Source of the DNA: Sphingobacterium thalpophilum
GTDB taxonomy: Bacteria; Bacteroidota; Bacteroidia; Sphingobacteriales; Sphingobacteriaceae
Length of the DNA stretch: 64,000 nt
Direction of reading: 5' to 3'
NCBI GenBank assembly: GCA_945868825.1
Contig: CAMBMM010000001.1
Coordinates: forward strand, 186,001 to 250,000
The notes below the pieces were generated by a model. It made no database searches. It saw only the letters and a program-made list of their open reading frames with translations, and was not told the origin of the DNA. Below, one piece after another: positions 52,204 to 54,114 of the stretch (its first letter is position 1; each line of letters begins with the position of its first letter). Both the position numbers and the translations under genes were made by a program.

Positions 52204-53694
52204 TCAATCATCGTAAAATGGTTTGGCCTTGGGGTTAGCCAATAGGTCGTTAATTCGTTTAATTTTTATTTCTAGTACTTCAACACAAATTTTTAAATTC
52301 CGTACCAATTCTTTGTGCGAAATCATTTTTTCATCATCAAGCTCTATAATCGTTTTTAACGTACTTAAGGGTCCACGTACATCGTGAGGGAGGTGTGTGC
52401 TTAGTTCGTTAATTTTTATGGCATTTATTTTATCAAGCTTAGATTTTTCGTTCACCAAACCTTTCAAGTGTTTATTTATTACCAGTAGCTGATTTTTTTG
52501 CGAATTAATTTCCTCGTTCAAATAGAGAAGTTCTTCATTAGCTCTATTTTTTTGGCGCACACTTCTAACCAATAAAATAATGAGAATAAACAGTAAGCCA
52601 GTAATTATAAGTGAAAACACTAGAATGATGTTTTTCTTTTCTTGCTTCACTCTGTACAATTCGTTTTTTCGTATCAGTTCATTTTTGTGCGATTGATCTA
52701 CAATTAAATCGATTTTTGCAGTTTCATTTTTTCGAAAATTCACACTGTCTTGTTTATATACGAGTTGCAAAAAGTGTAGTGCATTACCGTAATTTTTGCG
52801 TTTAGCCTCCAATTCATAATAGGTATGATTAAAATCATTAACCATCTTCTCATCGTGGGTTTCTTTTGCTAGGCGCATGCCCTCCATGAGGTATTTTCCT
52901 GCTGCAGTGTAATTTTTCTTTGCAATATATATGCTTGCTAAACTTAGGTTTATGCTAGCAATAGATTCGCTAAGATCCTCTTCTTTTGCTAATTTATATG
53001 CTTTAACTAAAAAATTTTCTGCTTGATCAAACATGCTGCGGTCTAAAAAAATCTTCCCACAATTTTGCAAACTATGTACTATGCCTGTTTTGTCGCCCAC
53101 TGCCGAAAACATTTTTTCTGCTTTGATATAATCATCTAAGGCTTGAACGTGGCGTTTTGTTCTAACATTAATGTTGCCCATATTTAAATAGATGTTTGCA
53201 AGCATTCCTGTATCTCTTAAAGGTAGAGCCAGTTTAAGCGCTCGATTGAAATATCCCGAAGCTTTTGTGTAATCTGTTTGAGAATATAGCCCACCTATAT
53301 TGTTTAGGACTTTTGCTTGCCCAGCTTTGTTTTTACTTGCTACAAAAAGCTGTAGTGACTTTAAGTAGTAGCTGATGCTTTTTTCTGTTTCAAACAAATA
53401 ATAGGTTGCTAAACCCATCATGCGGTAGGCTTCGGCTTCTCCTTTGGTATAATGTAGTTGTTTTGCCATGGCCAATGCTTTTTTTGCCCCTTCGAGACTC
53501 AGTTCCGAATTCTTTAGCCTATTAGTAAAGGCACGTTTGTTCAGCGTATCTACCACGCTGCTATCTGCAGGATTGGTAGTGATTTGAATGGCATGGGCAT
53601 GAGGTAGTCCAACACCCCATATTGCGCAAAAGATAGCTGCTATCTGTACTGCGGATTTAATTTTTTGAATCATTTTGGAAAAATAATTATTCAA
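52204..53694 (-). CDS. TPR-repeat sensor protein with TM and HisKA/DHp domain, no HATPase
   Basis: Signal sequence, about 6 TPR units, TM (IILVFSLIITGLLFILIILLV), coiled coil, HLPHDVRGPLSTLKTI H-box, stop 50 residues later. Confidence 0.85.
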   Translation of the reverse strand: MNNYFSKMIQKIKSAVQIAAIFCAIWGVGLPHAHAIQITTNPADSSVVDTLNKRAFTNRLKNSELSLEGAKKALAMAKQLHYTKGEAEAYRMMGLATYYLFETEKSISYYLKSLQLFVASKNKAGQAKVLNNIGGLYSQTDYTKASGYFNRALKLALPLRDTGMLANIYLNMGNINVRTKRHVQALDDYIKAEKMFSAVGDKTGIVHSLQNCGKIFLDRSMFDQAENFLVKAYKLAKEEDLSESIASINLSLASIYIAKKNYTAAGKYLMEGMRLAKETHDEKMVNDFNHTYYELEAKRKNYGNALHFLQLVYKQDSVNFRKNETAKIDLIVDQSHKNELIRKNELYRVKQEKKNIILVFSLIITGLLFILIILLVRSVRQKNRANEELLYLNEEINSQKNQLLVINKHLKGLVNEKSKLDKINAIKINELSTHLPHDVRGPLSTLKTIIELDDEKMISHKELVRNLKICVEVLEIKIKRINDLLANPKAKPFYDD

Positions 53695-53854
53695 TGAATA
53701 AATTAATTATCTATTTACAACAATTATAAGAAATATCTCTCATATATTTTCATTAAAAAATAATTTAATTCTTTTTACAAAAAATTATTAAGCTCAAAAT
53801 CAAATCATTATAATTATTAGGTAATAAAATTAACTATATATAGTTATTATTCTA

Positions 53855-53862
53855 TATATTTG
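53855..53862 (+). promoter_or_regulatory. Putative -7 promoter element TATATTTG for small lipoprotein
   Basis: Exact TAnnTTTG in an AT-rich intergenic region, 48 nt before ATG 53911. Confidence 0.5.
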
Positions 53863-53910
53863 ATAATAATATAACTAAAAATTAAAAATTTACTTTAAAA
53901 TTAAATTCTC

Positions 53911-54057
53911 ATGAAAAAAATCTTATTTTCTCTACTAGTTTTAGGATTCATTGGAATGGTTTCCTGCAAAAAAGACAACAGTGTGCAACCCACAAAATCG
54001 AACAACTCCACATTAACCAATGGAGGTGACAAGCGTGATTTGGGTATGGGTGATTAA
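53911..54057 (+). CDS. 48-aa predicted small lipoprotein (absent from ORF track)
   Basis: ATG...TAA: MKKILFSLLVLGFIGMVSCKKDNSVQPTKSNNSTLTNGGDKRDLGMGD; lipobox MVSC; promoter motif upstream and terminator directly downstream. Confidence 0.75.
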   Translation: MKKILFSLLVLGFIGMVSCKKDNSVQPTKSNNSTLTNGGDKRDLGMGD

Positions 54058-54082
54058 TGCCTCTACCTATTTCATTGATGCG

Positions 54083-54114
54083 AAAACGAGGGTAATTTTT
54101 ACCCTCGTTTTTTT
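54083..54114 (+). terminator. Rho-independent terminator after small lipoprotein
   Basis: AAACGAGGGTAA-TTT-TTACCCTCGTTT followed by T-run. Confidence 0.88.

Follow-up and report, generated by a model that had tools for sequence, protein, structure and literature searches.

Does a 48-amino-acid lipoprotein serve as the ligand of the membrane-bound TPR sensor that is encoded divergently from it? This question is raised by a locus of Sphingobacterium thalpophilum located at positions 52204 to 54114 of the window, by which we mean the entire 64,000-nucleotide stretch of DNA that was analyzed. A first-pass annotation had guessed at such a pairing from the adjacency of the two genes. The two genes are the minimal form of a pair, undescribed so far, that is widespread in Bacteroidota of soil and fresh water. 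In relatives, arrays of small secreted proteins opposite a receptor-like sensor hold many copies of a single species-specific peptide, which points to a hitherto unknown system of peptide signaling, and we consider it likely that the window harbors a minimal, pheromone-like copy of a peptide-ligand/receptor cassette, with processing, binding and output as the steps that we infer. The lipoprotein side of the locus comprises the following features.

53855 to 53862, plus strand: TATATTTG, a Bacteroidota-type -7 box facing the precursor gene (from its position and from TAnnTTTG in relatives)
53911 to 54057, plus strand: small lipoprotein gene, candidate peptide precursor, 48 aa (ORF, conservation in relatives, purifying selection)
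53911 to 53967, plus strand: signal sequence and lipobox MVSC of the precursor (residues 1-19, the lipobox being residues 16-19; from the sequence)
54028 to 54054, plus strand: DKRDLGMGD at the C-terminus, candidate ligand (in relatives, the motif is conserved and repeated, and precursors of one genome agree in it)
54040 to 54054, plus strand: core LGMGD of the candidate ligand
54087 to 54114, plus strand: intrinsic terminator, a 9-bp hairpin (CGAGGGTAA/TTACCCTCG) with a T-run (from the sequence)

The short ORF encodes exactly the 48 amino acids reported for it by the first-pass annotation, and the lipobox, the upstream element and the strong terminator that had been assigned to it are all present. 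It occurs at the same place in five congeneric genomes with 58-96% identity, and its dN/dS ratio is 0.08-0.34 in unsaturated pairs, synonymous sites being saturated in wider ones; the prospect that the gene might be missing from relatives, or unselected in them, is thereby dispelled. The strongest constraint falls on the C-terminal 10 codons (pN 0.11, pS 0.61). Judged by these sequence comparisons, the ORF is a real gene under purifying selection. It had furthermore been described as a complete monocistronic unit and as surface-anchored. The former holds in the window genus, whereas in other relatives the gene is a member of an array of up to 12 genes; the latter does not apply in general, as many homologues are plain secreted proteins without a lipobox. 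The sensor side of the locus is composed as follows.

52204 to 53673, minus strand: TPR-TM-DHp receptor gene, 489 aa, ATG start (Pfam TPR_12, alignment, AlphaFold model)
52801 to 53571, minus strand: predicted periplasmic TPR superhelix, residues 35-291 (AlphaFold model, Foldseek)
53422 to 53424, minus strand: codon of Arg84, an invariant residue in helix A2 of the TPR groove (98 of 98 linked receptors)
52570 to 52650, minus strand: predicted transmembrane segment, about residues 342-368 (hydrophobic stretch in the long helix 295-447)
52237 to 52425, minus strand: predicted DHp two-helix domain without an ATPase domain, residues 417-479 (model; H-box conserved)
52384 to 52386, minus strand: codon of the phospho-acceptor-type His430 (invariant, 98 of 98)

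Each trait previously ascribed to this divergent neighbor was recovered, namely a signal sequence, TPRs, one TM segment and a DHp without a HATPase domain. The TPRs match Pfam TPR_12 (E=1.6e-23), and the start codon is probably the ATG at 53673, which gives 489 aa, and not the TTG at 53694. The AlphaFold model (pLDDT 86.9) comprises seven TPR-like hairpins at residues 35-291, a single helix (295-447) within which the TM segment lies, and the second helix of the DHp (453-479). A CA (ATPase) domain is absent from this model, Pfam gave no HATPase match, and the protein ends about 60 aa beyond His430, with uvrD as the next gene. Likewise, no HTH or Rap N-terminal output domain was detected by Pfam, alignment or model. 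In all 98 linked receptors, H430, R433, P435, S425, R84 and N125 are invariant; residue 84 is Arg in only one of 14 distant TPR homologues, and it is kept in close paralogues. Along with R84, the Asn residues 124/125/164/204 are conserved in the groove of the receptor and could belong to a putative two-carboxylate clamp (Lys-Asn-Asn-Lys-Arg). In Foldseek, the model matched LGN-peptide complexes, RapF, RapF-PhrF, Rap-CSF and Rap-phi3T with its pheromone, and the predicted TPR superhelix would thus be of the peptide-binding type seen in Rap-peptide complexes.

At a threshold of E<=1e-40, 156 of 401 Sphingobacteriaceae genomes, representing 11 of 25 genera, encode the receptor. When 60 relatives were searched with each of the two proteins, small-lipoprotein matches were found beside receptor matches in other genera as well, and about 90 loci from about 11 genera hold the two genes together. 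The pairing that had been guessed from adjacency is strongly supported by this recurrence in genome sequences, and the suspicion that homologues might never lie next to TPR-DHp genes is laid to rest. The hosts include Mucilaginibacter, Daejeonella, Pelobium, Pararcticibacter, Hufsiella and Paradesertivirga, some Pedobacter (cryophilus, psychrophilus, segetis), and freshwater Sphingobacteriaceae MAGs. A class-wide search returned only two weak TPR-DHp homologues outside the family, and no peptide genes were seen beside either of them. TPR-TM-DHp proteins of other families that lack an ATPase domain were encountered at L320:1501-2988 and L321:1477-3009, one of them followed by a gene resembling a SpoIIE-type phosphatase, which suggests that ATPase-less sensors form a broader class in Bacteroidota.

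We mined 98 receptor loci for precursors. The usual gene order is uvrD-receptor-precursors-M20, with uvrD and the M20 peptidase gene flanking the cassette on both sides in 66 of the 98 loci; a further 30 show at least one of the two, and the majority of these are truncated by the limits of the fetched stretch or by a contig end. In receptor-less genomes, uvrD directly adjoins M20 (L313), an unrelated gene lies between them (L310, L311), or M20 is found in another context; the M20 gene is thus also present in genomes without the cassette. These two genes are the only conserved neighbors: genes for a protease, an exporter, a response regulator or a modifying enzyme do not accompany the cassette, and no linked immunity gene was seen at its loci. 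In 14 whole genomes of Mucilaginibacter, every match to a repeat precursor sits at the receptor locus. The same query gave no matches in 11 receptor-less genomes, a negative result that is weaker because the query is a Mucilaginibacter sequence. A search for plasmid carriage of the receptor gave only generic TPR matches. One genome (G232) carries two tandem receptor paralogues without visible precursors (L328:110-3212) on a contig other than that of its uvrD-adjacent receptor. At two loci where precursors are missing or diverged (L330:4136-5101, L334:3491-4438), the gene of a secreted protein (FGASTV..., by eye resembling an esterase), similar in both, fills the space between M20 and the receptor.

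In these 98 loci, 1-12 small genes (median 4), each encoding a signal peptide or lipobox, stand opposite the receptor. In total, 373 precursors bear the motif, and each of them ends in, or repeats up to 23 times, a genome-specific peptide of the typical form [LIVM]-[GAS]-x-[AGWYF]-D, which in the window reads DKRDLGMGD. Elsewhere we observed KKDIGTAD, KKDVGTAD, KRDLGSAD, NKQDLGQAD, DKKNTGSAD, DKGNLGTWD, NKKDTTQWD and DKRDLGSYD. Position P5 is L, I or V in most precursors, Asp is the sole invariant residue of the core, and the C-terminal residue is exactly Asp in 319 of the 373. At least two peptide copies are present in 144 precursors, with a maximum of 23 among those tallied, and larger repeat genes of 553 and 490 aa exist in L154 and L178. 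A lipobox-like site was found in 133 of the 373, many others being plain secreted proteins; beside the receptor of the window genus, and of many genomes of Daejeonella and the Pedobacter type, stand lipoproteins with a single C-terminal motif. Under a strict rule, 86 of the 98 receptor loci contain at least one motif precursor; most of the 12 that fail it lie at a contig edge, contain giant repeat genes (>400 aa) or have variant tails. Neither Pfam nor NCBIfam provided a convincing family for the precursors, and low-score lipoprotein matches were due to the signal peptide. At L335:5715-6113, two precursor-like genes have a different common tail, PADGGI, and the receptor groove of this locus is changed (N124L, Q203T); it is possibly a diverged peptide-receptor type.

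The peptide is tied to the receptor locus and is uniform within a genome. It ends 314 of 442 small signal-peptide ORFs on the array side, versus 0 of 872 elsewhere in the same loci, and the terminal pentapeptide is common to same-genome precursors that are <35% identical outside the tail. The -2 residue is matched within the locus in 94% of cases as compared to 66% upon permutation between loci (49 loci), with p<=2e-4 for within-locus matching at positions -5 to -2. In L110 and L109 this residue is W, in L120 it is Y, in L121 it is F, and in most Mucilaginibacter it is A; the lipoprotein copies and the divergent distal gene agree on it in every one of these cases. Between genomes the peptide varies, with 43 distinct pentapeptides among 86 loci. 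The tail GGDKRDLGMGD, suspected by the first-pass annotation to be the functional part of the lipoprotein, indeed contains the element that is conserved and repeated across relatives.

The promoter box is placed in the receptor-precursor intergenic region and not before each array gene: TAnnTTTG faces the precursors in 62 of 85 intergenic regions versus 18.4 in shuffles. We rejected a separate promoter for each array gene, since only 5% possess TAnnTTTG within 140 bp, and an enriched upstream motif, 'GCCGACTAA', turned out to be the last part of the coding sequence before it. In Mucilaginibacter, a TAACTTTC element faces the receptor at a distance of about 103 bp; a conserved GAAAGTTA that we had considered as a separate operator in this genus is probably the receptor's own -7-like box (TAACTTTC reversed).

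Peptide and receptor also vary together. Peptide distance correlates with TPR distance (r=0.50), and the partial correlation is 0.33 when controlling for M20 (p=0.0005) and 0.30 given the DHp half, versus 0.095 for peptide and DHp given the TPRs. Helix-A columns, which line the predicted groove, make up 17 of the 37 columns in the top decile (p=0.0075). Only a weak effect remains in disjoint nearest pairs, with p=0.03 for TPR minus DHp, p=0.10 for TPR/M20 and no significant difference between helix A and helix B. Because the signal weakens in these pairs, shared ancestry may contribute, and we regard the sequence evidence for peptide-receptor coevolution as moderate. The groove residues R84/N124/N125/N164/Q203 are altered in five of six motif-lost loci versus six of 92 motif-bearing ones (p=4e-5), in categories that were set after inspection of the data.

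These observations lend themselves to the following model. The small gene of the window would produce a Sec-exported lipoprotein whose C-terminus, DKRDLGMGD with its core LGMGD, would be the ligand, and in relatives such a ligand would stem from arrays composed of lipoproteins, precursors with multiple repeats and proteins that are simply secreted. Of these steps, export of the precursors by Sec and the uniformity of the peptide are read directly from the sequence. A protease probably frees short Asp-ended peptides by cutting after Asp, and C-terminal copies of the peptide may act uncleaved; some precursors run a few residues beyond the last Asp, so that a free C-terminal Asp would there need cleavage. 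The periplasmic TPR superhelix would then take up the peptide in its concave groove, where Arg84 and a ladder of Asn residues (124/125/164/204) would be the likely contacts, and import of the peptide into the cytoplasm would not be needed because the TPRs of the receptor are predicted to be periplasmic. The TM/coiled-coil helix would subsequently change the cytoplasmic DHp. As the DHp possesses an invariant His and no ATPase domain, it cannot autophosphorylate and would have to pass phosphate to or from a response regulator or a different kinase. In the genome of the window, nine HATPase-fold matches (six of them kinase-like) and eight receiver matches above cut-off constitute a small set of candidate partners.

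Genome-specific peptides and their multi-copy production suggest a pheromone or self-density signal. Carried further, lipoprotein arrays and tandem-repeat precursors would be cleaved to give species-specific peptides with Asp ends, which the TPR receptor would detect outside the cytoplasm and relay through the ATPase-less DHp. That this amounts to a new class of peptide pheromones, native to the Sphingobacteriaceae and setting self apart from non-self pherotypes across soil Bacteroidota, strikes us as an evenly balanced proposition.

Three other explanations need to be weighed against a peptide-ligand/receptor cassette, and the strongest arguments against all of them are the repeat-bearing, non-lipidated precursors and the matching of tails within genomes. 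The small lipoproteins could report on lipoprotein or outer-membrane traffic, their tail touching the inner-membrane TPR sensor upon mislocalization or envelope stress in an RcsF- or NlpE-like logic, and no intercellular signal would be involved. The single-motif lipoproteins that many Daejeonella and Pedobacter-type genomes, like the window genus, carry beside the receptor would fit such a surveillance task, as would a receptor predicted to be an inner-membrane protein with a periplasmic domain. However, a lipobox-like site is restricted to 133 of 373 precursors, many being plain secreted, some precursors are tandem repeats with up to 23 motif copies, and species-specific variation of the motif would be unexpected for a stress reporter. 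We judge this explanation to be unlikely.

Alternatively, the repeat peptides could themselves be the product, as a bacteriocin, an entericidin-like lytic peptide, an adhesin or a matrix component, whose production is only regulated or scaffolded by the TPR-DHp protein. The multi-gene, multi-copy output resembles that of high-output secreted products, and pairs of small lipoproteins resemble entericidins. Yet the cassette lacks a conserved immunity gene, exporter or modification enzyme, Pfam and NCBIfam contain no matching small-toxin family, selection is focused on a tail of 5-8 residues that is matched between unrelated precursors, and this tail co-varies with the TPR half of the receptor; a role as effector or structural component is similarly unlikely in our estimation. 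Still less probable, to a degree that makes it hard to entertain, are peptide cores of a RiPP that undergo enzymatic modification elsewhere, with the TPR protein as carrier or sensor. Multi-core repeat architectures occur in some RiPPs, and NCBIfam matched the TPR region weakly to the RiPP protein HaaT (41.7 bits versus a cut-off of 1125), but this match reflects TPR similarity of a generic kind, no maturase is among the conserved flanking genes (uvrD and M20 peptidase), Sec signal peptides or lipoboxes carry the precursors out of the cytoplasm, and no core residue but Asp is invariant. Finally, a chance adjacency of a TPR gene and unrelated lipoproteins with a common signal peptide and lipobox, to which the frequent N-terminal SCKK lipobox region of Bacteroidota lipoproteins and its weak off-locus matches might lend some color, is ruled out for all practical purposes by the 314/442 versus 0/872 control, by the recurrence in about 90 loci and by the joint absence of receptor and precursors in sister genera.

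To our knowledge, no peptide-pheromone system has been established in Bacteroidota. Our literature search by peptide strings and topics, which covered mainly open-access journal articles, yielded nothing relevant on the cassette. The principle of a peptide recognized by a TPR receptor is already known; as far as we could find, what is new is the architecture, periplasmic and ATPase-less, together with the multi-copy arrays. Should the peptide-ligand/receptor cassette prove true, Mucilaginibacter, a major genus of soil and rhizosphere, would possess a peptide-signaling family with cognate and non-cognate peptides ready to be tested, and TPR-peptide recognition would be extended to a periplasmic receptor. 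At the same time, the cassette poses the question how a DHp without an ATPase domain transmits a signal.

Among known systems, the cassette is best read as RRNPP-like (Rap/Rgg/NprR/PlcR/PrgX) in its logic, but as periplasmic and differently wired. Both would use a short linear peptide from a small exported precursor that is encoded beside a TPR protein, and the receptor model matches RapF-PhrF and Rap-phi3T with its pheromone in Foldseek. In RapF, the peptide binds on the concave side and a conserved Asn (Asn227) is needed for binding (PMC3601957), to which the conserved Asn residues on the A helices of our receptor may be compared. In contrast to RRNPP proteins, the receptor appears to be a membrane protein with a periplasmic TPR and a cytoplasmic DHp, without HTH or Rap phosphatase domain; there would be no need for peptide import, the hosts are Gram-negative Bacteroidota, and precursor arrays hold tandem peptide copies. 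With peptide-sensing histidine kinases of the AgrC and ComD type the receptor shares the joining of a membrane receptor to a two-component DHp, but its sensor is a predicted periplasmic TPR superhelix, the CA domain is absent, and no response regulator is linked. The enterococcal pheromones cAD1 and cCF10 derive from lipoproteins, and yeast alpha-factor from a tandem-repeat secretory precursor. The peptide would be similar to cAD1 and alpha-factor in this origin; it differs in its place, which is the C-terminus or repeats of the mature part instead of the signal peptide, and in having an unrelated receptor.

Carboxylate-clamp TPRs bind I/M-EEVD tails, five residues with a hydrophobic P5 and Asp at P1 (PMC8913300). 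The C-terminal five-residue motif of the precursors, with its hydrophobic P5 and its Asp at P1, and the conserved Asn/Arg on the A helices of the receptor recall the dicarboxylate-clamp TPRs of HOP and CHIP that hold Hsp70/90 tails. This is a resemblance only, as P2-P4 here are G/A/S, x and A/G/W versus E-E-V, and the proteins are bacterial and, by prediction, periplasmic. The TPR region is homologous to that of Bacteroidota TPR sensor kinases (FimS-like, 61 bits for FimS; LytS-type with a LytTR regulator), which differ from the receptor in having complete kinase domains and no adjacent peptide array. In Daejeonella, paralogues at L323:4852-6720 and L325:4144-5967 join this TPR region to a LytS-type kinase; they adjoin an apparent LytTR-type response regulator and no peptide array, retain R84/N124/N125/N164, and may read the same peptides as the receptor.
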